A stretch of 50,839 nt of DNA from Alphaproteobacteria bacterium (lineage in GTDB: Bacteria; Pseudomonadota; Alphaproteobacteria; Rhodospirillales; Magnetovibrionaceae). The DNA is taken from the NCBI GenBank assembly GCA_015231605.1, contig JADGBG010000009.1, positions 1 through 50,839 of the forward strand. Reading direction: 5' to 3'. Under the pieces are notes generated by a model, which was not told the DNA's origin, made no database searches, and saw only the letters and a list, made by a program, of their open reading frames with translations. Of the stretch, positions 1 to 48,857 are shown one piece after another. Numbering within the stretch: the stretch's first letter is position 1; each line of letters starts with the position of its first letter. Both the position numbers and the translations under genes were made by a program.

Positions 1-708
1 CTGCTGGCGTCGGGCCTCTACATGGGCGTCACCAGCTTTTCCGACACCCAGGGCATTCTCAACCGCCCGGGTCTGATTTCCATCGTCGGCACCATGCTGT
101 CCGGAGTCTCGGCCTTTTTGATGTACCGCTATCTGACCTGCGTGGCGGAACGCAACAACAACGCCGTGCTGCGCGCCCTGGCCCACGAAAACCGCATGGA
201 CGTCATTTCCGCCGTGGTGGTGCTGTCGGGCATCGTCATGGCCGATTTCGTGTGGCCCGAAGCCGACCATTTGGCCGCCTTCCTGGTATCCCTGCTGGTG
301 GTGAAGATGGGCGCGGAAGTGGTTTGGGACGCGGTCAAGGGGCTGCTCGACGTGTCCGTGCCCCAGGACGTGCTGGCCGACATTTCGCGCACCGTGCGCC
401 TGACCCCCGGGATCGAGGACGTGCAACTGGTGCGCGGACGCAGCCTTGGCGAATTGTGGGAAATCTATCTCCACGTCACGGTGGATGAAAACAAGACCAT
501 CGGCGAGACCGAAGACGTCGTGGACCTGTTGCGCAAGCGCGTGCACAAGGCGTTCGCCCAGGTTCAGCACGTCTGGGTCGTCACCAACCCCGAACGCAAG
601 GCCGACGACGATGGCGGCGATTACTGGTCGCAACACCTGTTCGCCCTGCCGCGTGACGGAGAAGACGCCGGCGTCGGCGCCGACGACAAGGCCCCCGCGA
701 CCCCATAA
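1..708 (+). CDS. Cation diffusion facilitator (CDF) family metal transporter, C-terminal part
   Basis: The reading frame is open from the first base of the window, so this is the 3' part of a longer gene; the ATG at base 22 is internal or at best an alternative. CDF proteins export Zn2+, Fe2+ or Mn2+ from the cytoplasm in exchange for protons. The visible part holds the last membrane helices, including the HENRMD sequence (bases 184-201). This is the HxxxD half of the transport metal site found in helix 5 of the family; the matching half lies upstream of the window. A cytoplasmic dimerisation domain of about 80 residues follows (PGIEDVQLVRGR, then LWEIYLHVTV), with a charged, disordered tail. 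The metal cannot be told from this part. A zinc-binding CZB gene follows 32 bases downstream on the same strand, which favours zinc as an inference only. Confidence 0.85.
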   Translation: MLASGLYMGVTSFSDTQGILNRPGLISIVGTMLSGVSAFLMYRYLTCVAERNNNAVLRALAHENRMDVISAVVVLSGIVMADFVWPEADHLAAFLVSLLVVKMGAEVVWDAVKGLLDVSVPQDVLADISRTVRLTPGIEDVQLVRGRSLGELWEIYLHVTVDENKTIGETEDVVDLLRKRVHKAFAQVQHVWVVTNPERKADDDGGDYWSQHLFALPRDGEDAGVGADDKAPATP

Positions 709-29312: not shown

Positions 29313-31151
29313 TTACTTCAGGTACTTGTCCAGATCGACCTCGTCCAACTGGTCGGGACGCAGGAACCGTTCGGCGTATTCCTTGTAGACGCCGCTTTCC
29401 AGCATCAGGCGGAACAGGTCCGCGTCGATGTGCTGATCCTTGACCATGAAGGACAGGATCTTGATGCTTTCGCTGAGCGTCTTGGGCTTTTTGTACGGAC
29501 GGTCGGCGGCGGTGAGCGCCTCGAACACGTCGGCCAGCGCCATGATGCGCGCGGGCACCGACATGTTTTCCTTGGTGAGTTTCTTCGGATAGCCCGTGCC
29601 GATCAGGGTTTCGTGGTGCGCGCCCGCGTATTCCGGCACATTGCGCAGGTGTTTGGGGAACGGCAGCTGGCCCAGCATCACGATGGTCTGGACGATGTGG
29701 TTTTGGATGATGTAGCGGTCTTCCGCCGTCAAGGTGCCGCGGCCGATGGACAGGTTGTAGACCTCGCCCCGGTTGAACAGGTGCTTCGGCACGTCCATGT
29801 TGAAGCCGTACTTGTCCGAATTCGGCGCTTCGAAGGTGCCGTCGCGCGGGAAGATGTGTTCGGGCTTGTCCTGCAAAAGCTGTTCGACCACGGGCAGGGG
29901 CCGGGCGGGCTCCACTTCCTTGCGGCGCAGCTCCTCGTGCGAGATGCCGATGCGGTCGTCCAGCGTGCGGGTCCAGGTATGACGGGCGATGTCCTTGAGA
30001 CGCTGGACCTTATCCTCGGCCATGAACTCACCGCCCACGTTGCATTCCGCGACGAAGGCGTAATCGTCGTCGATGCGGGCCAGCGTGGCGTCCAACTCGG
30101 CCTTGAGCGCGTCGCGATCGCCGCCTTCGGCCACCTGTCTCCAGTAGGCGATCTCGGCTTCGCGTTTCAGGACTTCGAAGCGCATGCGCACTTCGTGGAT
30201 GCGGTCATGGATGGTTTCCAGCTTGGTCGCCTTGTCGACCACGTATTCCGGCGTCACCACCTTGCCGCAGTCGTGCAGCCAGCTCGCCAGATGCAGCTCG
30301 CGGAAATCCCCCTCGTCCATGGTGAAGTCCTTGAGCGGGCCTTGCTCGGTCCCGGCGGCGGCCTCGGCCATCATGCGCGCCAATTCGGGCACGCGCGCGC
30401 AGTGCCCGCCGGTGTAGGGCGACTTGGCGTCGATCGCGCCGCCGATCACCATGATGAAGCTGTCCATCAGGCGGGCCTGGGCTTCCAGAAGCATCTGGTT
30501 GTCCACCGCCACGGCGGCCTGGGAGGCCAGCGCTTCGATCATCGGCACGATGGTGGACGAGAACGGGATCGATTCGCCCGTGTCCGGGGCCTGGGCGTTG
30601 AGCAACTGCAACACCCCGATGACCTCGCCGGAATGGTTCTTGAGCGGCACGTTGAGGAACGACTTGGAACGATACCCCGTGCTCTGGTCGAATTTGCGCG
30701 GGCCCGTGAAATCGAATTCGGTCGCTTCGTAGACGTCGGGGATGTTGACCGTTTCACCGGTCAGCGCCACGTGCGAGGCGACGTTCTTGTGGTTGGGTTC
30801 ACCCGTCTTGGGATCGTAGACGCTGAGCGGCGGGAACGGAATGTCCTCGCCCGTGGTGCCGCCCTTGGCGATGCCAAGCGAATCCGTGCGCATGATCTCG
30901 AACTTGAGGTATTTGCCGTCGGCCTCGGCCTCGAACTGGGGTTCGGGGATGCCTTCGAATTCCACCATGTTGCCGCACAGATACAGCGTCCCGCCGTCGG
31001 CGTGACACAGGGCCTTCGCTTCCAGCAGGATGTTTTCGAGCAGGCGCTCGTGGTTGCGTTCGGCCGACAGCGCAATGCCGATTTCAATCAGCTTGGCGTA
31101 GTCCGCTTCGCGCATACCCCCATTGCTTGGCGTCGCATCGATTGGCGCCAT
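29313..31151 (-). CDS. GAF-HD-GYP c-di-GMP phosphodiesterase with a large insertion
   Basis: A 612-residue cytoplasmic protein. A GAF domain (about 15-220, ending [20 protein letters not shown]) leads into an HD-GYP domain. The metal and catalytic residues are visible: H250 in GGHCARV, H293-D294 with K297 in LHDCGKV, H485 in QNHIV, H512-H513-E in [14 protein letters not shown], and D541 in [16 protein letters not shown] enzymes degrade c-di-GMP to GMP. Between HD and the HHE-GYP motif there are about 218 residues instead of the usual 60 or so; the extra 150 are helical and charged (about 310-460). The start has AGAGGGATC upstream. It is first in a two-gene unit. Confidence 0.88.
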
Positions 31152-32995: not shown

Positions 32996-33274
32996 ATGTC
33001 GTCAGCCGCATTGCACCTCAATACGCTTCTTGTCAAGGCGCCCGTGGTCAAGGCCTTCGCCACCAGTTCCATCGGCGCGACCGGGGCGGTCGCGGCGTTG
33101 GTTGGCGGCACCAGTGTTCTGACCCTCGGCGCCTTGGGCGCGGCGGCGGGCGCGGCGGTTTATGGCGTGCTGAAGGCGCGTGAAACCGACGAGACCATCC
33201 GTTCCCGGAAATTGTTCGGCGTCAAAAATCCCGCACAGACGGCCCTGGACGCGTTTCGTCGGGTGTTCGCTTGA
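32996..33274 (+). CDS. Small Ala/Gly-rich hydrophobic protein of unknown function
   Basis: A 92-residue product, not recognised. The middle (about 22-62) is a long hydrophobic Ala/Gly/Val stretch (IGATGAVAALVGGTSVL, then LGALGAAAGAAVYGVL) that could form two membrane helices, followed by a charged end (KARETDETIRSRKLFG). The ATG at 32996 has an excellent AGGAGGGG site, so it is a real gene although short; the open frame extends upstream without a ribosome site. It converges on the coiled-coil gene of the PilZ operon, 21 bases away. A membrane-inserted peptide is the best guess. Confidence 0.65.
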   Translation: MSSAALHLNTLLVKAPVVKAFATSSIGATGAVAALVGGTSVLTLGALGAAAGAAVYGVLKARETDETIRSRKLFGVKNPAQTALDAFRRVFA

Positions 33275-33295: not shown

Positions 33296-33829
33296 TCACC
33301 CGATTCGCTTGACCATTTCCACGCGTTTCAATTCCAGATAGTCGTGGATGTCCTTTTCCGCGAGGCTCTTTTCGTTGCGCGCGAAGTCGGCGAAAAAATC
33401 GCGGATTTGGTCGAATTCGGCGTTGATGCGCTCGGTCAATTCGCGACGCATGGTCTGGGCCTCCTCGCGGTATTCCTTGTCGAAACGTTCGCCCAGACGG
33501 CGCTTTTCCTCTTCGGACCAGGCGCGCACCTCGCTTAGGGCCAGTTTCTTCTCGGCCGCCATGTCGGCCTTGAGGGCGGCCTCCATGTCCGCCCGGCGCG
33601 CCGCCAAGTCCTGTTCCAGGGTGCGCACGTGCTCCAGCAACTCGCGTTCCTTGGCGGCCAGGTAGTCGAGGTTGGTTTCCAGGATGTTTCGGGCGGCAGG
33701 GTCCATGCCGTCCTCGGGCGCGGCGTCCGTCTGCGCCTTGGTCCCGGCGAAACGGTCCGCCCCCCATCCGAAGGCTGCGCCGAACGCCAGTCCGAACACC
33801 GCCGAAGACACTATCGTCGTCACAATCAT
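33296..33829 (-). CDS. Membrane-anchored coiled-coil protein in the PilZ/VWA operon
   Basis: A 177-residue protein with one N-terminal hydrophobic helix (about 3-23, VVSSAVF-like, Gly/Ala-rich) and a long charged coiled coil (about 50-170) with heptad-like spacing (LETNLDYLAAKERELLEHV, then LEQDLAARRADMEAALKAD). The family is not recognised. Its start codon overlaps the stop of the VWA-PilZ gene (ATGA at 33826-33829), so translation is coupled and the two products are likely partners. An inner-membrane anchor with a rod on one side of the membrane is inferred; the side cannot be decided from the sequence. Confidence 0.7.
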   Translation of the reverse strand: MIVTTIVSSAVFGLAFGAAFGWGADRFAGTKAQTDAAPEDGMDPAARNILETNLDYLAAKERELLEHVRTLEQDLAARRADMEAALKADMAAEKKLALSEVRAWSEEEKRRLGERFDKEYREEAQTMRRELTERINAEFDQIRDFFADFARNEKSLAEKDIHDYLELKRVEMVKRIG

Positions 33830-35370
33830 TGCGTCACCTCGTCAATCCGGGTCTGTAGCTCGACCCAGGCCATCCATGCGTCCTCATTGTCGGCAAATTC
33901 GTCCAACAGGACAACGACATTCACGCCGTCGCGCATACGCAGGGTGCATGCCACGACCGTCAGGTCATGGACCAGCGCGGGGCACGTGACGCGCTCGATG
34001 CGGTCCGCCGCGAAATCCTCGGCCCTAAACATCAGGCCTTCCAGGGAAATGTCGCTGACCTCGGCGCTTCGCGGCATGCCGTCCGGTCCCGTCCAATGCA
34101 CCAGCATCGCGCCCGCCGGAACCTTGACGCGATGCGACAAACGCCGTTCGCGGTCCAATTCTTCCTGGCCGTGCGCCATGAATTTGCGGCGGGCCCGCTC
34201 GGCATCGTCAAGGGTCTTGGCGACGCGATCGTTGATGAAATCGGTGGCCGGGTGGGCGATGAAGGCCATGGCGTCCCGTTCCGACGCGCTGGCGTTTTCC
34301 CGTGCTCGAGCGCGCAACCGCCACAACGCCCACGCCAATACGATCAACAACACCAACAAGGCCGCCAGCAGAGCCGGGTTGATGCCGACGTCCTTGGGTT
34401 CTGCCCGCGCGGGGTTCGTGACGACGGGGGACTGGGCTTGGTGCTGAGGCTGAGGCTGAGGCTGAGGCTCGGATATCTCGTCCGCCAGATTGGCCGCACC
34501 GTCGCGGGTTTCCTGCACCGTTTCCAGGGCCTGGCGAACACGCTTGGCGAAGTCTGCGGGTAACGGTTCGTCGATCAGGCTGCTGGCCTTTTTTTGCAAT
34601 TCGACCATGGCGTCGCGCATGCGGGCGACGGGGTCTTCCTGATCGGCCAAGCGGATCGGCAGGTGTTGGGCGGCGGCGGCCTTGGCCCAGGTGCGCAGGA
34701 AGTACGACCGCCCAGACAAATCCCAGACCACCAGCTTGTTGGCGAGCTTGGCCTTAAGTTCGTCAAGCTGTCCTTCGATCAGGTCGTAGTTGCGCTGGTG
34801 GTAGGCCGTGCCGAGCGCGTCGAACAGTTCGCCAGGCGTTCGGCCAGCGGCCTTTAACTGGGCGTGACGGGCGTTGAGATCGCCATAGCGCTCGTCGGCC
34901 AGGACGGCGGGGCTAAGGTATTCCAAGCGCCGATCCCAGACGTCGGGCGCGCCGTCGGAAATCACCACCACCAACTTGATCGCAGCGAAATCCTCTTGTC
35001 CCAGCAGATAACGGATGGGGCGTTCGAAGTCCGTCACCTTGCCCTTGGCGGCGATGGCGTCCATGCTCCTGGGCAGTTCCGCCATGGACTTGGGGTGGTC
35101 CGTGCGCGCCACGGTGTGTTCGCGTGCTTCCTCGTCGAAACCGACCAACACCAGTTCATGCGGCGTCTTGAAGGTCTTCACGAAGGTGGTGAGCCAAACC
35201 TTGGACGCCAGTTTGGGGTCGTAGCGCTGCATGGACCCGGACTGGTCGAAAATCACGATGATGCGCCCCGGTACTTCCTCCGCGCGCGCCGCGCCGCCCA
35301 AACTCACGGCGAGCGCAAGCCCCGCCAAGACGGTCAGACGATACAGCAAAAGGCTGGAAAAACGGGGCAT
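33826..35370 (-). CDS. Exported VWA domain - single membrane helix - cytoplasmic PilZ domain protein
   Basis: A 514-residue protein with an unusual order of domains. A signal peptide (1-30, ARA-EE) precedes a von Willebrand A domain (about 34-240) with a complete metal site: D42-Q-S44-G-S46, T113 and D139 in ISDGAPD. A helical region (250-300) and a Pro-Gln repeat (302-310) lead to one membrane helix (about 331-351). The cytoplasmic part has a charged helix (355-405) and a PilZ domain with R410-L-S-H-R414 and D440-I-S442-L-E-G445, the two c-di-GMP-binding motifs. It is the middle gene of a three-gene operon, 18 bases after the small PilZ gene. The arrangement suggests that cytoplasmic c-di-GMP controls a periplasmic adhesion or scaffold domain; function is inferred. 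Confidence 0.85.
   Translation of the reverse strand: MPRFSSLLLYRLTVLAGLALAVSLGGAARAEEVPGRIIVIFDQSGSMQRYDPKLASKVWLTTFVKTFKTPHELVLVGFDEEAREHTVARTDHPKSMAELPRSMDAIAAKGKVTDFERPIRYLLGQEDFAAIKLVVVISDGAPDVWDRRLEYLSPAVLADERYGDLNARHAQLKAAGRTPGELFDALGTAYHQRNYDLIEGQLDELKAKLANKLVVWDLSGRSYFLRTWAKAAAAQHLPIRLADQEDPVARMRDAMVELQKKASSLIDEPLPADFAKRVRQALETVQETRDGAANLADEISEPQPQPQPQHQAQSPVVTNPARAEPKDVGINPALLAALLVLLIVLAWALWRLRARARENASASERDAMAFIAHPATDFINDRVAKTLDDAERARRKFMAHGQEELDRERRLSHRVKVPAGAMLVHWTGPDGMPRSAEVSDISLEGLMFRAEDFAADRIERVTCPALVHDLTVVACTLRMRDGVNVVVLLDEFADNEDAWMAWVELQTRIDEVTQ
34444..34467. repeat. Six-base tandem repeat (four copies) coding for a Pro-Gln linker
   Basis: CTGAGG is repeated four times. On the coding (minus) strand it gives alternating Pro and Gln between the VWA domain and the membrane helix. 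Slippage by whole units would change the linker length by two residues without breaking the frame. Confidence 0.85.
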
Positions 35371-35388
35371 GTCGCGTTCTCGGGGCTT

Positions 35389-35715
35389 TCAGTCCAGTGC
35401 GTCGTCAATCAGGGACGCCATGTAGGTCCGTGCGTTCTTGTTCAGGGTGAGGTACTGAACAGCCAGGGTGTCGTCCTCGGCGCGGATGACCTTGGCCGCC
35501 ATTTTCACGTCCACCAGGATGGTCCCGCCCAGGCCCAGCCCGGTAATGTTCACCAAATCGCCCGGAACATGGTCGCCGCGATAGCATTGCAGCAACAATC
35601 CGCCCAAGCTCATGTTGATGGCGAAAAAGATCTCGTCACCCATTCGCGCGCAAAATTCCGGACGATTGACGCGCGGATGTTCGCGCCGGTCCTCGGCTTT
35701 GCCCGTATCCGTCAT
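35389..35715 (-). CDS. Single-domain PilZ protein (c-di-GMP receptor)
   Basis: A 108-residue cytoplasmic protein consisting of a PilZ domain. The binding motifs are R11-E-H-P-R15 and N34-M-S36-L-G-G39, matching RxxxR and [D/N]xSxxG, so c-di-GMP binding is expected. The ATG at 35715 has a GAGGGGGG site; the open frame before it overlaps the divergent oxidoreductase start and is rejected. It is the first gene of the operon with the VWA-PilZ and coiled-coil proteins. Stand-alone PilZ proteins usually act by binding a partner, and the natural candidate is encoded next. Confidence 0.88.
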   Translation of the reverse strand: MTDTGKAEDRREHPRVNRPEFCARMGDEIFFAINMSLGGLLLQCYRGDHVPGDLVNITGLGLGGTILVDVKMAAKVIRAEDDTLAVQYLTLNKNARTYMASLIDDALD

Positions 35716-39325: not shown

Positions 39326-40269
39326 CCGCGCTTCTCGCAGATATCGGCGGCACCCACGCCCGCTTCGCCGTGATGGACGATCAAGGAAAGACGTCGCACG
39401 AAACGGTGTTCCCCACGTCCGAGCACGCCACCATGTGCGGCGCGGTGCGGTCCTATCTGGCGGATCTGCCCCATGACCAACGCCCGCACCGCGGCGCCTT
39501 CGCGGTGGCGTGTCCGGTGCACGGCGACCGGGTGCAATTCACCAACCTGGACTGGGCGTTTTCCATCCGTTCCGTGACGGACCAGTTGGGTTTGATGCAA
39601 TTGAACGTCGTTAACGACTTCGCCGCCATCGCCCACGCCTTGCCGGCGTTGGCCGTGCGCGGCAGCCGCCCCATCGGCGGGGGGCAGGTGGTGAAGGACC
39701 TGCCCATGGCGGTTCTCGGCCCGGGCACGGGGCTTGGGGTTTCCGGGTGGATTCCCAGCGGGGCCGGGGGCGTGGTTTTGGATACCGAGGGTGGGCACGT
39801 GACGCTGGCCGCCCGCACCGACGAGGAGGCGGCGGTTGTGGATATCCTGCGCGGCCGGTTCGGCCACGTATCCGCGGAACGCGCCATTTCCGGTCCCGGA
39901 CTCATGAACCTGTATCAGGCCCTGTGCGCGATCGAAGGCGTTCAGGAGCAGGATCACCAGCCCCAGGACATCACCACCCACGCCCATGCCGATCCCAAAA
40001 GCATCGAAGCCCGGACCGTGGGGATGTTCTGCGGCTTCCTCGGCACCGTCGCGGGGGACTTGGCGCTGAGTCTGGGCGCGCGCGGAGGAGTGTTCATCGC
40101 CGGCGGCATCCCCGGAAAGCTGGGGTCGGCGTTCGACGAATCGTGCTTCCGCGCCCGGTTCGAGGACAAAGGCCGGTTTTCGGAATACCTGGCCGCCATC
40201 CCCACCTTGTTGATCACCAACCCCAACCCCGCGTTTCTCGGGCTGGCGGCGATGTTGACGCATCAGTAG
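39322..40269 (+). CDS. glk: Glucokinase
   Basis: A 315-residue enzyme of the Glk family (not ROK) that phosphorylates glucose with ATP. The phosphate-1 motif is LLADIGGTHARFAV, the sugar site includes LNVVNDFAAIAHALP with the catalytic Asp, and the adenosine side has VLGPGTGLGVSG. A Glu/His-containing segment ISGPGLMNLYQAL matches the family. Its ATG overlaps the stop of the large oxidoreductase gene (ATGA), with CAGGAGGAACC upstream, so the two are translationally coupled. Sugar entry and redox balancing in one transcript is notable. The end overlaps that of the opposing cyclase gene by seven bases. Confidence 0.94.
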   Translation: MTALLADIGGTHARFAVMDDQGKTSHETVFPTSEHATMCGAVRSYLADLPHDQRPHRGAFAVACPVHGDRVQFTNLDWAFSIRSVTDQLGLMQLNVVNDFAAIAHALPALAVRGSRPIGGGQVVKDLPMAVLGPGTGLGVSGWIPSGAGGVVLDTEGGHVTLAARTDEEAAVVDILRGRFGHVSAERAISGPGLMNLYQALCAIEGVQEQDHQPQDITTHAHADPKSIEARTVGMFCGFLGTVAGDLALSLGARGGVFIAGGIPGKLGSAFDESCFRARFEDKGRFSEYLAAIPTLLITNPNPAFLGLAAMLTHQ

Positions 40270-42134
40270 GACTGATCGTCGGTCCACATTTCCGGCGCGA
40301 AGTGGATCACCCGATTGCGGCCCTGTTCCTTGGCCTCGTAGAGCGCCACGTCGGCGAACTTGAGGGCCTGCCAGAAGGTGTCCGCGTCCTTGGGGTATTC
40401 CGCCGAGCCGATGGAGATGGTCTTCTTCAGCTTGGTTCCGGCGGTGATGATCTCCATGCTTTCGATGGTGGAGCGGATCTTTTCCGCGACCTCTTGTGCA
40501 GGCGTGCCGACCGTATCCACCAAGACCACCAGGAATTCCTCGCCGCCGAAACGGATCACCATGTCCGACGCCCGCACGGTTTGGCGCAGGACCTTGGCCA
40601 GCGCCTTGATCACGTCGTCGCCGGCGTCGTGGCCGTAGGTATCGTTCACCATCTTGAAGTGGTCGAGGTCCAGCATCATGATGGTCAAACCGATCTGACG
40701 CCGGTCCGCGTTGGCCACCAGGGTGTCGATGTATTCTTCCAGGAAGCGGCGGTTGTTGAGGCCTGTCATCGGATCGCGCAGGCTGGATTCCTTCAATGTC
40801 GCCATCAGTCGCTTGGTTTCCAGCACCGGCGCGGCTTCGCGCAGGTAGACCTTGATGAACGGCACCTGCGCCAGCGTGTCGATGCCGCATCCGGGCTTGG
40901 CGATCAACTGCACCACGTTTCCGACGGATCCCGCCTGGATCACCGGAATGCAGACGTAGCGGTATGAATCGCAGCCTTCGGGCGGCCGGAAGGAATAGCA
41001 GATGTCCGGATCCGAAATGCCGTCGATCACATGGCCCGTGCGCCGCGCGCGGCAACCGTCGCCGCGCACCAGGATCTGCGGGTCGCACCATTTGCACCCC
41101 CCGCCCAGTTCGCCGTCGACGATGGTGGGAACCATCTGGTTCTTCTTTTGCGGATCGATTTCGTAGATGGAGTATTCGGTCACGCCGTAGTCGGTGGCGA
41201 TGACGCGCGCCAGACGCTGGAGGATTTCCTCCTTGCTTTCGTCTTCTTCGATGGCCTGCTTGAAGATGGACGCGCGGGTCAGTCCGTCCACCATGTCGGT
41301 GGTGGCGTCGAGCAGGTTTTCCCCCGGCTGCGGCGCGCGGTTGGTCAGTCGCGCGACATTCGCGCCGATGGCGTTGAGGCCTTCGTCGAGGAACGCCAGG
41401 AGCCGGTTCATGTCCTGGGCGATCTGGCCCATTTCATCGTCGGTGATCTTCTTCACCTTGGTCGTGAAGTCGCCGTCGAGGGCCTTGTGCACCGCCTTCT
41501 TGACGTTGTCGGCGGTGAGGGACAGCGGGCGGATCAGGCGGCTCACCAGCAGCAGGGCGGCCAGGGTGAACAGGGCGACGGTGCCGATGATGCCGGACAC
41601 GGTCAGGATCGCCTTGTCCTTGAGGTTGCCGATGGACATGGAAATGGTCACCGCGCCCAACACGTCGCCTTCCTTGACCTCGTGGCATTCCAGGCAGTTG
41701 GGCGAGCCGTGAGCCGTGGCGGTGAACGGAATGGTGCCGCGAAAGAACGTGTCGCCCGCTTTTTCCACCACTTCGTAGCGGGCCTGGCCGTCGGTCAACA
41801 CCTGCTTTTCGATTTCGTCGGTGGTCATTTCGGTCGCAGTGCCTTCGCCGAACTGCCCGACCACGTGGTGGGAGCGCACGACACGGGCGCCGGACAGACC
41901 CTGAACCTCGACAAGGCGCTTGAGGAAACCTTCGCGCTGGTCGATGACGCCGTTGATCATGCTTTCCGTCAGGCCCACCCGCACGATTTCCGCCGCCGTG
42001 CGGATGTGGTCGGTGGAAGACGCGATGGAAAACGTCCGGAACGCATACAGATTGATCGCCACCAGCATGATGATCAGACCTGTCGAGATCAGGGCGAAAG
42101 AGGTCGTGACTTTGGTGTTGAGCTTCATGATCAT
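40263..42134 (-). CDS. Membrane diguanylate cyclase with a periplasmic c-type heme motif
   Basis: A 623-residue sensor. Two membrane helices (about 12-32 and 176-198) bracket a periplasmic domain (33-175) that carries C147-L-E-C150-H151, a CxxCH heme-attachment motif, in a Tll0287/DUF3365-like setting. A HAMP region (198-250), a GAF-like domain (about 295-440) and a GGDEF domain (452-615) follow. The active site is G530-G-E-E-F534 and the inhibitory site R521-A-S-D524 is intact, so it should make c-di-GMP with product inhibition. The GAF part is rich in Cys (347, 350, 361, 379, 388, 395, 416), which may form a second redox or metal site. The start is ATG at 42134 or 42128. It likely senses redox state or gas. 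Confidence 0.88.
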   Translation of the reverse strand: MIMKLNTKVTTSFALISTGLIIMLVAINLYAFRTFSIASSTDHIRTAAEIVRVGLTESMINGVIDQREGFLKRLVEVQGLSGARVVRSHHVVGQFGEGTATEMTTDEIEKQVLTDGQARYEVVEKAGDTFFRGTIPFTATAHGSPNCLECHEVKEGDVLGAVTISMSIGNLKDKAILTVSGIIGTVALFTLAALLLVSRLIRPLSLTADNVKKAVHKALDGDFTTKVKKITDDEMGQIAQDMNRLLAFLDEGLNAIGANVARLTNRAPQPGENLLDATTDMVDGLTRASIFKQAIEEDESKEEILQRLARVIATDYGVTEYSIYEIDPQKKNQMVPTIVDGELGGGCKWCDPQILVRGDGCRARRTGHVIDGISDPDICYSFRPPEGCDSYRYVCIPVIQAGSVGNVVQLIAKPGCGIDTLAQVPFIKVYLREAAPVLETKRLMATLKESSLRDPMTGLNNRRFLEEYIDTLVANADRRQIGLTIMMLDLDHFKMVNDTYGHDAGDDVIKALAKVLRQTVRASDMVIRFGGEEFLVVLVDTVGTPAQEVAEKIRSTIESMEIITAGTKLKKTISIGSAEYPKDADTFWQALKFADVALYEAKEQGRNRVIHFAPEMWTDDQSY

Positions 42135-42473: not shown

Positions 42474-44867
42474 TCAGTTTCCGGCCGCCACTACGCGATT
42501 ACGGCCACTTGCCTTTGCGGTATACAATGCCTTGTCTGCTTCCCGCAGGCAGGCGTGCTGGTCCTCGCCATCAATGGGAATGGTGGCCACTCCGCAGGAA
42601 ATGGTGAGTTGGGGCAAGGGTTTTCCGCCGTAATGGATTTCGCGGGATTCAACCGCCTTGCGAATTTCCTCCCCCTTGGCGGTGGCGCCTTCCTTGTCCA
42701 ATCCGACGAAAACCAAGGCGAATTCCTCGCCGCCGTAGCGGCAGGGTAGGTCCTGGCTTCGGCAATTTTCACGCAAGATATTGGCAATTTCCTTGAGCAC
42801 CACGTCACCGGCATCATGGCCGTAGGTGTCGTTGAAGCCCTTGAAATGGTCCGCGTCCACCAACAGGATGGAAATGGGATCGCCACTGCGTTGAGAACGG
42901 CGAATTTCCAATTCCACGGTTTCGTCGAAGAAGCGACGGTTAAACAGTTTCGTCATCGGGTCACGAATGGATTCTTGTCTAAGCTTTTCGCGCAGTTGCA
43001 GGTTGGAAACGGCGACGCCCAGACGATCGGAAACCGCCGATAAGACGTCCATGTTGCGCTGTAAGCGCGCGCGGTGATGTTCGGCCGTCATCTCGATCCC
43101 TGGCGGCGCGTAGAGGGACAGCAACCCAATGATGCCGTCACGGGTGGACACGGGCAGACACACGGCATGATCCAAGGCCACATCCTTGATATGGGGACAA
43201 ACCAGGTGGTCCTCGCCCGTTTCCAAAACCTTGGTTTCACCCTGGCGCATGGCCCAGCAGTCGCCGACTTTGAAATAGTCTTCTCCTTCGTATTGCCCAC
43301 CCCATTTCGCGCAGAGCTCCAACACGTTGCCGTTTTCCACGCTGAAATAGCCTCCCACTTCCATCGGAAACAGGATCGCGCAGAACTTCGCCACCGCATC
43401 GAACAATTCGTCCTGGCTTTCGGCGGACTGAAAATAGCCATTCATTTTGTTAAGCTGGGAATTGACCCCGTTCATGGCGTCGAGCGCGCTGACGCGCATG
43501 GATAAATCTTCGTTTAATTTGCGCAGTTCTTCTGCGCTGCGCTTTTGCTCGCTGATATCGCGGATCACCCCTGTAAACATGTTTCGCCCACCCACGGTGA
43601 TGTGGTTGACGGACAAAAGCATGGGGAACTCTTCGCCGTCCCTGCGTCTGCCGGTGACTTCGCGGCCTTTGCCAATGACCTTTTTGATGCCGGTATTGAC
43701 GTAGGCCGAGATGTAACGGTCATGGTTGGATTGATAGGGGTCGGGCATCAGCATCTTGACGTTTTGTCCGATCATTTCGTCAAGACGGTAACCGAACATG
43801 GTTTCCGTGGCCGGGTTGGCGTCTTCGACGATGCCCTGTTCGTTGATGGTGACGATGGCTTCGGTGGCGCCGCTCAAAATGGCGCGCCCGCGCGCTTCGC
43901 TTTCGCGGAGGGTGGTTTCAGCCTCTAAGCGCTGTTTTTCCAGACGCAGGGTGATTATCAAATTGGAGCACGTCACCAGGAACGGTTGGAGAAATTCGAT
44001 GAGTTCCTCGCTGTAGCCACCCGGTCGGTTGGCGATGCCCACCATGCCGACGAACTCCTCACGTGAAAAGAACGGCAAGCCCAGGAATGCGTTCAGCGCC
44101 GGATGGCCTTCGGGCAGGCCGCCGCTGCGCGGGTCGTTGGCGGGGTCGTTGGATAGCACGGGTTTGCAGGTCGTCATGACCTTGCCGAATAAGGTCTCGG
44201 TGTTGGTGAACTTCAGGCCTTCGGGTACTTTTTCCTCATAGAAACGCTGCGTTTCATCGTTCCAGGCAATATTGGTGATGGCGTGTGTCGTCAGGATGGG
44301 GGCATTGCTGTCGTCGTATCCGATTTCTCCAATGAACCCATATTCGCTTTGCGTTAGAGACAGCAGTTCATTGAGAAGCTTTTCAAACACAATCCCAGGC
44401 TTGATATTGCGCGAGATTTCCTGTTGCGCGGTGGTGATGGCCTGGAGGAGTTGGCGGTAGCCCTGTTGCACGGTGATATCACGCACAACGCCGGTAAACA
44501 TGCGCCGCCCACCGACCTGCATTTCCGATACCGCCAGTTCGAAGGGGAACAAACTGCCGTCCTTGTGCCGCCCCATGACTTCGCGGCCCACGCCGATGAC
44601 GCGCTTTTCACCGGTTTCCAAATAGCGCGCTAGATAGCCATCATGCCTGGCGCGGTGGGGCTCGCCCATCAAGGTGGAAATATTCTTCCCGACCACCTCG
44701 TCCTGGCGGTATCCGAATAGCCTTTCCGCCGAGGGGTTGAAGCTTTCGATCACGCCGGTTTCGTCGATGGTAATGATGCCGTCGGCAACCGTCTCGAACA
44801 TCGACTGAAAACGGATGTCCGCGTCGGAGCGGTCCTTTCGATGCTTTTGTGACTTGGAGGTAGTCAT
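42474..44867 (-). CDS. Diguanylate cyclase with two FixL-like PAS domains and two GAF domains
   Basis: A 797-residue soluble protein: PAS1 (18-132), GAF1 (140-310), PAS2 (325-440), GAF2 (455-625), GGDEF (635-795). The catalytic motif is G712-G-E-E-F716 and the I-site is R703-S-Q-D706. Both PAS domains follow the heme-binding PAS of FixL closely. PAS1 has RHDGYLARY with H75 and R81, and IGVGREV with R95, matching the heme ligand His200, Arg206 and Arg220 of Bradyrhizobium FixL. PAS2 has NHDRYISAY with H382, Ala388 in place of the second Arg, and R402. An oxygen- or redox-sensing cyclase is inferred. G+C is visibly lower than around it (26 of 60 in 44341-44400), and direct repeats flank it, so transfer is likely. 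Confidence 0.87.
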   Translation of the reverse strand: MTTSKSQKHRKDRSDADIRFQSMFETVADGIITIDETGVIESFNPSAERLFGYRQDEVVGKNISTLMGEPHRARHDGYLARYLETGEKRVIGVGREVMGRHKDGSLFPFELAVSEMQVGGRRMFTGVVRDITVQQGYRQLLQAITTAQQEISRNIKPGIVFEKLLNELLSLTQSEYGFIGEIGYDDSNAPILTTHAITNIAWNDETQRFYEEKVPEGLKFTNTETLFGKVMTTCKPVLSNDPANDPRSGGLPEGHPALNAFLGLPFFSREEFVGMVGIANRPGGYSEELIEFLQPFLVTCSNLIITLRLEKQRLEAETTLRESEARGRAILSGATEAIVTINEQGIVEDANPATETMFGYRLDEMIGQNVKMLMPDPYQSNHDRYISAYVNTGIKKVIGKGREVTGRRRDGEEFPMLLSVNHITVGGRNMFTGVIRDISEQKRSAEELRKLNEDLSMRVSALDAMNGVNSQLNKMNGYFQSAESQDELFDAVAKFCAILFPMEVGGYFSVENGNVLELCAKWGGQYEGEDYFKVGDCWAMRQGETKVLETGEDHLVCPHIKDVALDHAVCLPVSTRDGIIGLLSLYAPPGIEMTAEHHRARLQRNMDVLSAVSDRLGVAVSNLQLREKLRQESIRDPMTKLFNRRFFDETVELEIRRSQRSGDPISILLVDADHFKGFNDTYGHDAGDVVLKEIANILRENCRSQDLPCRYGGEEFALVFVGLDKEGATAKGEEIRKAVESREIHYGGKPLPQLTISCGVATIPIDGEDQHACLREADKALYTAKASGRNRVVAAGN

Positions 44868-45171: not shown

Positions 45172-45510
45172 TCAGACGTTTTCGTAGGCGATGCCCTTGG
45201 CGTCGAACAGCTTTTGCAGTTCGCCGGTGGAATACATTTCGCGCACGATGTCGCAGCCGCCGACGAACTCGCCCTTGATGTAAAGCTGCGGGATGGTCGG
45301 CCAATTGGAGAACGCCTTGATGCCTTCGCGGACTTCCATGTCCTGCAAAACATCGACGCCCTTGAACTTGACCTTCATCTGGGACAGTACGCCCACCACG
45401 GCGGCGGAGAAGCCGCACTGAGGGAACATGGGGTTGCCCTTCATGTAGAGCAGAACGTCGTTGCCGTCGATGTCGGCCTGAATGCGGGCGAAAACGGGAT
45501 TGTCGGTCAT
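45172..45510 (-). CDS. grxD: Monothiol glutaredoxin, CGFS type (Grx4 family)
   Basis: A 112-residue protein with the CGFS active site (FPQCGFSAAVV), KGNPMFPQ before it and WPTIPQLYIKGEFVGGCDIV in the glutathione-binding half. CGFS glutaredoxins carry and hand over 2Fe-2S clusters and form cluster-bridged complexes with BolA proteins. The bolA gene lies directly upstream (28 bases), in agreement. The start has AAGGAAC. It is the last gene of the purQ-purL-bolA-grxD run. Confidence 0.96.
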   Translation of the reverse strand: MTDNPVFARIQADIDGNDVLLYMKGNPMFPQCGFSAAVVGVLSQMKVKFKGVDVLQDMEVREGIKAFSNWPTIPQLYIKGEFVGGCDIVREMYSTGELQKLFDAKGIAYENV

Positions 45511-45538
45511 ATCGTGGGGTTCCTTGTTAGCGCCGTCG

Positions 45539-45781
45539 TCAGGCGTCGTCTTCGGGGGCGGAGGTTTGCAGGCCCAGCGCGTGCAACGCGCCGTCCATGC
45601 TGCCCTTGAGCGCGGCGTAGACCATCTGGTGCTGCTGCACGCGGCTCTTGCCGGTGAAGGCCTTGGAAATCACGCGCGCGGAATAGTGGTCGCCGTCGCC
45701 GCGCAGATCCTCGATATGCACTTCGGCGTCGGGCAGGCCTTCCTTGATCAGGCGTTCGATTTCGGCGGCTTCCATGGCCAT
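45539..45781 (-). CDS. BolA family protein
   Basis: An 80-residue protein with the BolA fold: IERLIKEGLPDAEVHIEDL, then DGDHYSARVISKAFTGKSRVQ, then QHQMVYAALKGSM with the conserved His in RVQQHQMVY. The short length and the loop fit the BolA/IbaG group that partners with CGFS glutaredoxin in iron-sulfur sensing or delivery. It starts with AGGAGA six bases upstream, 27 bases after purL, and is followed by grxD. Confidence 0.95.
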   Translation of the reverse strand: MAMEAAEIERLIKEGLPDAEVHIEDLRGDGDHYSARVISKAFTGKSRVQQHQMVYAALKGSMDGALHALGLQTSAPEDDA

Positions 45782-45808
45782 GGGCGGGTCTCCTCGGTTC
45801 GTTCGGGC

Positions 45809-48016
45809 TTATTCTTCGAAGTCCGGATGCGCCATGTATTCCGGCATCCATTCCTCGTGCGCGGATTTCAGCGCCGCCACGGATATGGTTTCGCCCGCGC
45901 CGATGATCAAGTCCGCGCCGCCCGTTTCCCCGATTTTTTGCGCAGGAACCCCGGCGGCGGCCGCGGCGGCCAACAGGGCCTCCGCGTCGCGGGTGGTGAC
46001 GAGGTAGCGCGCCTGGTCCTCGCCGAAAATCCAGGCGTGCAGCGGCAGGGCGCCGCTCAAATCTTCGATCTTCGCGCCGATGCCGGACGCCATCGCCATT
46101 TCCGCGACGCCCACGCCGAGGCCGCCGTCGGACAGGTCGTGACACGCAGTGACCGCCCCCGACAGGATTTGCGCGCGCACGAAGTCGCCATTGCGCCGTT
46201 CCGCCGCCAGATCGACCGGCGGCGGCGGGCCGTCCTTGCGGTCAAGCGTTTCCTGCAGGTACTGACTGGACCCCAAATGGCCCTTGGTCTCGCCGATCAG
46301 CACGACGGCTTCGCCAGCGGCCCGGAACGCCATGCCCACGGCCTGGTCCACGTCCTGGATCAGGCCCACGCCGCCGATGGTCGGGGTGGGCAGGATGCCG
46401 GCGCCGTTGGTTTCATTGTACAGCGACACGTTGCCCGAGATCACCGGGAAGTCCAGCGCCAGGCAGGCCGCCGACATGCCTTCGCACGCGCCGACGAACT
46501 GGCCCATGATTTCCGGGCGCTGCGGGTTGCCGAAGTTCATGTTGTCGGTGATCGCCATGGGCGTCGCGCCGGTGGCGGTGATGTTGCGATACGCCTCGGC
46601 CACGGCCTGCTTGCCGCCTTCGACCGGGTCGGCGAAGACGTAGCGCGGCGTGACGTCGGAGGTCATCGCCAGCGCCTTCTTCTTGCCGTGGATGCGCACC
46701 ATCGCCGCGTCGCCGCCGGGGCGGCCCTTGGCGGTGGTGTCGGCCATGACCATGTGGTCGTACTGTTCCCAAATCCAGCGCTTGGAGCAGCCGTTGTGCG
46801 AGCCCACCAGCGTTTCCAGCGCCGCCGTGATCGACAGCGGCGCGTCCACGGTGGCCGGGTCCAACGCCGCGCGCTTGGGCGTCGGGACCCACGGGCGGTC
46901 GTATTCCGGGCTGGCCGCAGCCAGCGGATCGATGGGCAGGTCGGCGACCATCTCGCCCTTGTGGAACAGGCGCATGCGGCCGGTGTCGGTGATCGTGCCG
47001 ATGATGGCGAAGTCCAGTTCCCACTTCTCGAAGATGGCCTTGGCCATCTCTTCCTTTCCGGGCTTCAGGACCATGAGCATGCGCTCCTGGCTTTCGGACA
47101 GCATCATTTCATAGGGCGTCATGTTCGGTTCGCGCTGGGGCACGGCGTCCAACTGCATGTCGATGCCGGTGCCGCCCTTGGACGCCATTTCGAACGACGA
47201 GGACGTCAGCCCCGCCGCGCCCATGTCCTGGATGGCGACGATGGCGTCGGTGGCCATCAGCTCCAGGCACGCTTCCAGCAACAGCTTTTCCGTGAACGGG
47301 TCGCCGACCTGGACGGTGGGGCGCTTTTCTTCCGAATCCTCGGTGAATTCGGCGGACGCCATGGTCGCGCCGTGGATGCCGTCGCGGCCGGTCTTGGACC
47401 CGACGTAGACCACCGGATTGCCGACGCCCGCGGCGGCGCAATAGAAGATGTTGTCGGCCTGGGCCAGACCCACGCACATGGCGTTGACCAGGATGTTGCC
47501 GTCGTAGCTGGGGTCGAATTCGCATTCGCCGCCGACCGTCGGCACGCCCATGCAGTTGCCGTAGCCGCCGATGCCTTCCACCACGCCGTGGACCAGGTGA
47601 CGGGTCTTGGCGTGTTCGGGCGAACCGAAGCGCAGCGCGTTGAGGTTGGCGATGGGACGCGCGCCCATGGTGAACACGTCGCGCATGATGCCGCCGACGC
47701 CCGTCGCCGCGCCCTGGTAGGGTTCGATGTAGCTGGGGTGGTTGTGGCTTTCCATCTTGAAGATGACGGCGTCGTTGTCGCCGATGTCAATGATGCCGGC
47801 GTTTTCGCCCGGGCCGCAGATGACCCATGGGGCCTTGGTCGGCAGGGTTTTCAGCCACTTCTTCGACGACTTGTACGAACAGTGCTCAGACCACATGACG
47901 GAAAAGATGCCGAGCTCGGTCATGTTCGGCTCGCGGCCCATGATGTCGAGCACCATCCGGTACTCTTCCTCGGTGAAGCCGTGTTCCTTGACGATTTCGG
48001 GGGTGATGTTGCTCAT
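45809..48016 (-). CDS. purL: Phosphoribosylformylglycinamidine synthase subunit PurL
   Basis: A 735-residue subunit that turns FGAR and ATP with ammonia into FGAM in purine synthesis. The two AIRS-like halves are complete: [40 protein letters not shown] and [20 protein letters not shown] in the first, and [29 protein letters not shown] and [17 protein letters not shown] in the second. The length is that of the small PurL that needs separate PurQ and PurS. PurQ is directly upstream, 15 bases away. The start has GGGGAGGAACC. Confidence 0.97.
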
Positions 48017-48031
48017 GATTGGTTCCTCCCC

Positions 48032-48697
48032 TTAGGCCGCCAGGTGCTTGACCAGGGCGTCGAACAGCGGCTTGCCATCGATGCCGCCTTGCAACGGATC
48101 CACCAGGCGTTCCGGGTGGGGCATCATGCCCAGCACGTTGCCCTTCGCGTTGAACACGCCGGCGATGTCGTTGCGGCTGCCGTTGGGGTTCTTGACGTAA
48201 CGCAGCGCGACCTGACCCTCGCCTTCGATCCGCTTGAGGGTTTCGTCGTCGGCGAAGTAGTTGCCGTCGTGGTGCGCCACCGGATAGGTGATGATTTGGC
48301 CCTGGGAGTAGCCGTTGGTGAACGGGGTGTCGGCGCGCTCGACCTTCAGCGCCACGTCCTTGCAGATGAACTTGAGGTTGGCGTTGCGCATCAGAACGCC
48401 CGGCAACAGGCCGCTTTCACAGAGAATCTGGAAGCCGTTGCACACGCCCAGAACGTGGCCGCCGCGCTCGGCGTGCTTGACGACCTCGGCCATGATCGGC
48501 GAACGCGCCGCCATCGCGCCGCAACGCAGGTAGTCGCCATAGGAAAAACCACCCGGAATCGCGACCAAGTCATAGCCGGACAATTCGGTGTCGCGGTGCC
48601 ACACCATGTCGACGGGGGAGCCGATGGACTGCTCCAGCGCAACCTTCATGTCGCGGTCGCAGTTGGAGGCGGGAAAAACGATGACGCAGGCTTTCAC
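48032..48697 (-). CDS. purQ: Phosphoribosylformylglycinamidine synthase glutaminase subunit PurQ
   Basis: A 221-residue class I glutamine amidotransferase that supplies ammonia to PurL. It opens with [16 protein letters not shown], has [19 protein letters not shown], the nucleophile Cys in GVCNGFQIL and the catalytic His-Glu in MMPHPERL. The start is a GTG at 48697 with AAGG upstream; a GTG four codons earlier is a possible alternative. A longer open frame up to 49057 overlaps the opposing SGNH gene and is rejected. The usual purS gene is not found upstream of it. Confidence 0.96.
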
Positions 48698-48857
48698 GAT
48701 GAGCACCTTTTTCAGGGTTTCAAGCGGATTGTGTTTAGTATGGATTTCCGCGAAAAGCCAGGGTTGAGATGAATGGGCTTTTCCCTTTCGGTCATGCTGG
48801 TATGCTGGCCGCGCGAGAGATGGCGCGTAAACGGTTTTCAGCGTTGGGATAAATGGA

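Follow-up and report, generated by a model that had tools for sequence, protein, structure and literature searches.

McaA and McaB homologues in a magnetotactic alphaproteobacterium: the McaB-docking region is predicted to be a PilZ domain

Introduction

Three genes that lie on the minus strand between positions 35715 and 33296 of the window (the whole stretch of 50,839 nucleotides analysed here), in the order pilZ, VWA-TM-PilZ gene and coiled-coil gene, are read here as the mcaA-mcaB locus of a magnetotactic alphaproteobacterium, in which a PilZ domain would serve as the dock for McaB and the docking would probably be tuned by c-di-GMP; we give this reading a probability of roughly 60%. By homology the VWA gene belongs with McaA and the coiled-coil gene with McaB, the two proteins that position magnetosomes in Magnetospirillum AMB-1 (PMC9512821, PMC13170167). 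For AMB-1 it has been reported that McaA is brought by its VWA/MIDAS part to inner membrane of positive curvature, that the localisation is dashed, that residues 530-665 of McaA are both necessary and sufficient for McaB binding, and that loss of the 530 region alters MamK dynamics and the chain pattern (PMC9512821, PMC13170167). The identification as PilZ gives this docking region a fold and a candidate ligand. In the open-access literature no paper was found that names the McaA 530 region a PilZ domain or ties it to c-di-GMP; PilZ is mentioned in neither PMC9512821 nor PMC13170167, and c-di-GMP goes unmentioned in the newer of the two. If the reading is true, the arrangement of the magnetosome chain may respond to c-di-GMP, and a bacterial organelle-positioning system would be linked to this molecule, a link at which a transposon screen in MSR-1 only hinted: non-magnetic insertions were recovered in or beside diguanylate cyclase genes, and the authors mention c-di-GMP while preferring polar effects as the explanation (PMC7676999).

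Organisation of the locus and membrane topology

The unit opens with the standalone pilZ gene (35389-35715, minus strand), which has a good ribosome-binding site and encodes a single-domain PilZ protein of 108 aa. After a gap of 18 bases follows the mcaA-like gene (33826-35370, minus strand), whose 514-aa product combines a signal peptide (about residues 1-31), a periplasmic VWA domain with a MIDAS metal site, one TM helix and a cytoplasmic PilZ domain. Its stop codon overlaps by four bases (ATGA) the start of the mcaB-like gene (33296-33829, minus strand), which encodes 177 aa with an N-terminal TM segment (residues 2-24) and a coiled coil. Facing the unit, and converging on mcaB, is a plus-strand gene (32996-33274) with a strong ribosome-binding site for a small membrane protein of 92 aa, possibly a further member of the locus.

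The VWA domain (34570-35274, minus strand; residues ~33-267) carries the MIDAS residues D42, S44, S46, T113 and D139, none of which varies among the 12 aligned homologues, and its model superposes on 4fx5 with a VIA-align Z of 14.9 (2.9 A over 174 residues). A hydropathy scan places the TM helix at residues ~328-352 (34315-34389, minus strand; model helix 332-358), directly followed by RLRARAR, so that the positive residues lie on the cytoplasmic side. The C-terminal PilZ domain (33835-34158, minus strand; residues ~405-512), assigned from an AF2 model, PDB matches and a motif table, bears R410xxxR414 and D440xS442xxG445. The parts list of an earlier note on this DNA thus holds throughout: the single-domain PilZ gene 18 bases before the VWA gene, the exported VWA with intact metal site, the single helix with VWA and PilZ on opposite sides of the membrane, the C-terminal PilZ with both motifs and the ATGA-coupled membrane coiled-coil gene are all borne out.

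Further genes of the window can be recorded here. Within about 10 kb of the mcaAB unit lie a GAF/HD-GYP-type gene (29313-31151, minus strand) and two GGDEF genes (40266-42134 and 42477-44867, both minus strand); many GGDEF proteins are found in all seven genomes checked, with about 30 GGDEF domains in the genome of the window. An ORF of 1096 aa (45482-48769, plus strand) has no Pfam match at E 0.001.

Homology and distribution of McaA and McaB

A search of 317 genomes of the order gave matches to the 514-aa protein in 27, most of them full length and ~39-46% identical. Among the genomes with full-length homologues are Magnetospirillum sp. UT-4 and SS-4, M. moscoviense BB-1, Paramagnetospirillum caucaseum SO-1, P. 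marisnigri SP-1, strain LM-1 and Terasakiella sp. PR1. Beyond the order, a class-wide search of 385 evenly drawn genomes found the full architecture in the window's own genome alone. Compared with AMB-1 McaA, the window protein is 35% identical in the VWA part and 23-25% in the C-terminal domain (E 1.3e-12 in a whole-genome search). The two McaA-type matches in AMB-1 sit in what we take to be the places of mcaA, in the magnetosome islet, and of mcaA-like (amb0908), and the mamAB genes of this strain where the magnetosome island is presumably located. Homologues of McaB were found in 20 genomes, a count that leaves out a weak match in G140 (a 1287-aa frame, discounted), and each adjoins a gene with the McaA C-terminal domain; the McaB-like protein of the window is 48% identical over 124 aa to that of G124 and 30-39% identical to other McaB-like proteins. 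With the coiled-coil gene adjoining full-length homologues (39-46% identical) in many genomes, the arrangement is more than a product of chance.

This conservation belongs to the pair and does not extend to the gene in front of it. The standalone PilZ is a canonical member of its family, with 26.0 bits to PF07238 against a cut-off of 22.5 and both motifs present (REHPR, NMSLGG). Members of its family turn up in 56 of 317 genomes of the order, most of which have no mam genes, and outside the window none was found beside mcaA in the genomes examined. The expectation that all three genes would be conserved together was accordingly abandoned, while the pairing of mcaA with mcaB that formed part of it stands. 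The standalone pilZ is most readily understood as a gene recruited to the locus locally, and its recruitment agrees with, and is no proof of, control of the locus by c-di-GMP.

The two halves of McaA also occur apart. Three genomes (G033, G257 and G193) have the C-terminal domain without VWA and with mcaB, and two (G003 and G015) have the VWA part without the C-terminal domain and no mcaB; the exception is G192, with a weak copy of the C-terminal domain and mcaB not found. This distribution hints that the C-terminal domain is the McaB dock. At the loci concerned, the VWA-less genes of G033 (L046, 9548-10662) and G257 (L045, 8469-9917) combine a TM segment with a PilZ-like domain that has lost the c-di-GMP motifs, are accompanied by McaB, and lie within about 5 kb of mamI-mamE; in G193 (L078, 4677-6772), a genome 80% complete and with no MamK match, a PilZ-like gene is followed by two tandem McaB-like genes. 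The McaA-related VWA-TM proteins without the PilZ domain are found at 5729-7147 of L043 (G003) and 9554-10819 of L044 (G015), and G015, listed as complete, gave no MamK match at E 1e-40.

Magnetosome genes in the genome and around mcaAB

MamK is present in 36 of the 317 genomes of the order and in 23 of the 27 that are McaA-positive (Fisher p 6e-22, a value that ignores kinship), as well as in 19 of the 20 with McaB. The genome of the window is itself magnetotactic by gene content: another of its contigs (C148) carries relatives of mamE (a fragment), J, K, L, M, O, P, A, Q and B, its MamK scores 507 bits to NF040964, above the curated NCBIfam cut-off, and on a further contig (C18) MamD scores 312 bits to NF040916 against a cut-off of 100. 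In this assembly of 213 contigs mcaAB and mamAB are on separate contigs, and their linkage is that of a shared genome.

A further tie comes from the small gene that converges on mcaB. Its 92-aa product is 56% identical over 62 aa to a paralogue whose gene is the immediate neighbour of mamD on C18, and this paralogue is the sole relative found among 42 genomes. The position of the paralogue links the window contig with C18 and points to a magnetosome islet as the likely nature of the window locus; the 92-aa protein is possibly an uncharacterised magnetosome membrane protein. Its similarity to the tail of MamD (E ~0.1 in a tiny database) is such that a relationship is not claimed. In the other genomes, mamD-like LG-repeat genes lie within a few kb of most of the fetched mcaAB loci with enough flank. 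At the contig edge of the window (22-705, plus strand) there is also a cation-diffusion-facilitator gene, 37% identical to AMB-1 MamV over 197 aa, which may belong to the magnetosome CDFs or be an ordinary member of that family.

The C-terminal domain of McaA

The full-length AF2 model is usable over the VWA part and poor at the C-terminus, and the C-terminal domain was therefore folded alone, with a mean pLDDT of 75.8 and ~71-90 over the beta barrel. The best structural match of this model is the PilZ domain of YcgR (VIA-align Z 12.4, 2.3 A over 103 residues), followed closely by that of Alg44 (Z 12.2, 2.1 A over 100 residues); nearly all PDB matches are PilZ down to Z 6.2, and the first other fold appears at Z 5.4. 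The best Foldseek E value is a modest 1.7e-3, and a search of a viral fold library returned nothing informative.

A proof of the PilZ assignment by sequence alone was tried and dropped. Pfam PF07238 matches the C-terminus at E 0.13 in the full protein and at E 0.009 (16.8 bits) in the domain alone, under the gathering score of 22.5, which is a sequence threshold set by curation rather than a feature of the fold itself; the window member is the only one to match even at this level, the other 11 of 12 members of the domain family having no Pfam PilZ match. A PDB profile search with the domain gave unrelated matches alone, at E 0.29 and above. When aligned by hhalign with the PilZ proteins of the same genome, the domain has both motifs in register at a probability of 23% and a score of 26.1, against a best score of 22.4 for 16 scrambled or reversed controls. 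The PilZ claim thus rests on fold and motifs. In this connection G124 can be mentioned, where the McaA-like protein on contig 1 has intact PilZ motifs and the genome has no Pfam PilZ match at E 0.001, so that the McaA domain may escape standard PilZ counts.

The residues that would contact the ligand are strongly conserved. R410, R414, S442 and G445 are invariant in the 12 aligned homologues and position 440 is always D or N, and all 16 full-length McaA-like proteins have the complete set RxxxR plus [DN]xSxxG; many of these are near-identical Magnetospirillum copies, so that the 16 stand for no more than about four lineages that are independent. Both motifs are kept although the proteins of the window, of G124 and of the Magnetospirillum group have ~40% of residues in common. 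In the divergent copies, by contrast, both motifs are incomplete in nine of nine, AMB-1 McaA included, where Q/F replace the arginines and DVALQG stands at the second motif; no copy was found with just one of the two motifs complete, the motifs being kept or lost together. The earlier expectation that homologues would retain the motifs is therefore correct for the full-length McaA-like proteins and fails for AMB-1 McaA and the other divergent copies. The long branches of the C-terminal domain tree are unsurely placed, and for this reason a number of motif losses is not claimed.

Residues 530-665 of AMB-1 McaA, numbered on the assumption of a GTG start inferred at ORF residue 11, are collinear with the window helix (from ~375) plus the PilZ domain. 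On the basis of these models, the McaB-docking region of McaA is predicted to be a PilZ domain, and given its motifs the C-terminal domain of the mcaA-like protein probably binds c-di-GMP.

Proposed mechanism and alternative explanations

The pair encoded in the window very probably works as McaA and McaB do in AMB-1. In the mechanism that we propose, the exported VWA domain would, through its metal site, hold McaA at certain sites in the inner membrane, which the protein would cross by its one TM helix; and the cytoplasmic PilZ domain would dock McaB, the TM/coiled-coil protein sitting on magnetosomes, so that the McaA-McaB pair may change the dynamics of the MamK filament and with it the spacing of the magnetic organelles. 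Because the PilZ domain of the McaA-like clade keeps the c-di-GMP motifs, docking in this clade would probably be tuned by c-di-GMP; that ligand binding gates docking outright is a possibility to which we lean less. The upstream standalone PilZ may act on the pair as an extra receptor. AMB-1 McaA, its motifs lost, would be a c-di-GMP-blind derivative, which fits the accelerated evolution and neofunctionalisation proposed for this protein by Wan et al. A wider version of the proposal, in which c-di-GMP sets the position of magnetosomes directly, McaA is a transmembrane VWA-PilZ landmark, c-di-GMP switches its docking of McaB, and so MamK dynamics, in the majority of magnetotactic Rhodospirillales, and the fragmented chain of AMB-1 results from an insensitive, constitutive paralogue, is speculative and on balance doubtful.

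It may be argued that the PilZ fold is a mere protein-protein dock for McaB, with the motif residues kept for structure or for another ligand and c-di-GMP uninvolved. PilZ domains that bind proteins without a ligand do exist, as in P. aeruginosa PilZ, and several of the VWA-less copies beside mcaB are also without the c-di-GMP motifs. Moreover, AMB-1 McaA docks McaB (PMC13170167) although its motifs are lost, so that docking in itself does not require c-di-GMP. A dock of this kind would nevertheless leave unexplained that, at ~40% identity, exactly the ligand residues R410, R414, S442, G445 and D/N440 are retained, that both motifs are kept or lost together, and that a canonical PilZ gene joined the window operon, and we consider it unlikely. 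It has also to be considered that the McaA-like clade performs some other task specific to MTB, such as a c-di-GMP-dependent placement of MamK or of envelope structures, rather than crystal spacing, since deletion of mcaAB-like in AMB-1 gave no chain phenotype under standard conditions and most species with the McaA-like clade have continuous chains (PMC9512821). The mamD-like genes nearby and the purifying selection reported by the authors of the AMB-1 work suggest, against this, a magnetosome role, and the lack of a deletion phenotype could be explained by a conditional function; such another task seems very improbable.

The function proposed in the earlier note, an adhesion system resembling LapD in which the cytoplasmic PilZ would pass a c-di-GMP signal outward to a periplasmic VWA domain, has the topology and the motifs right and can appeal to the adhesive role of VWA domains in many proteins. 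The distribution of the family, however, tracks MamK and McaB: these relatives of McaA and McaB are found almost only in magnetotactic genomes, often by mamD-like genes. No LapG-type protease, large adhesin or secretion gene was found among the main window ORFs scanned with Pfam, and in AMB-1 localisation is the role of the VWA part, while the cytoplasmic part, which binds McaB, is the effector, so that the direction of signalling is probably the reverse of that proposed. On the distribution and the AMB-1 experiments the adhesion model was rejected, and we regard it as very improbable indeed. The tuning of a PilZ dock by c-di-GMP is thus the reading that we prefer for the McaA-like clade; it bears on how magnetotactic species set their chain pattern and on the role of the widespread McaA-like and McaB-like proteins, and the lost ligand site may account for the difference between the AMB-1 pair and its relatives.

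Comparison with known systems

The LapD/LapG/LapA system shares with the window locus a c-di-GMP module and a periplasmic domain that are separated by the inner membrane; the window locus differs from it by having no degenerate GGDEF/EAL receptor, protease or adhesin, and by an information flow that is probably opposite. YcgR, Alg44 and other PilZ effectors have the same predicted fold and the same RxxxR and DxSxxG motifs, whereas in the mcaA-like protein a single helix connects the PilZ domain with a periplasmic VWA domain, and its partner is a magnetosome protein. AMB-1 McaA and McaB, encoded in the magnetosome islet, have the same architecture and partnership, with 530-665 as the homologue of the window PilZ domain, and the differences lie in the incomplete motifs, the long variable cytoplasmic linker and the C-terminal extension of AMB-1 McaA. 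Close counterparts, too, are the McaA-like and McaB-like proteins of Magnetospirillum (amb0908 and amb0907 in AMB-1): the gene order there is B then A instead of A then B, and the window has a shorter McaB and a pilZ gene in front, while signal peptide, VWA-MIDAS, TM helix, a C-terminus with RxxxR and [DN]xSxxG, the neighbouring mcaB and ~40% identity over the full length are common to both.
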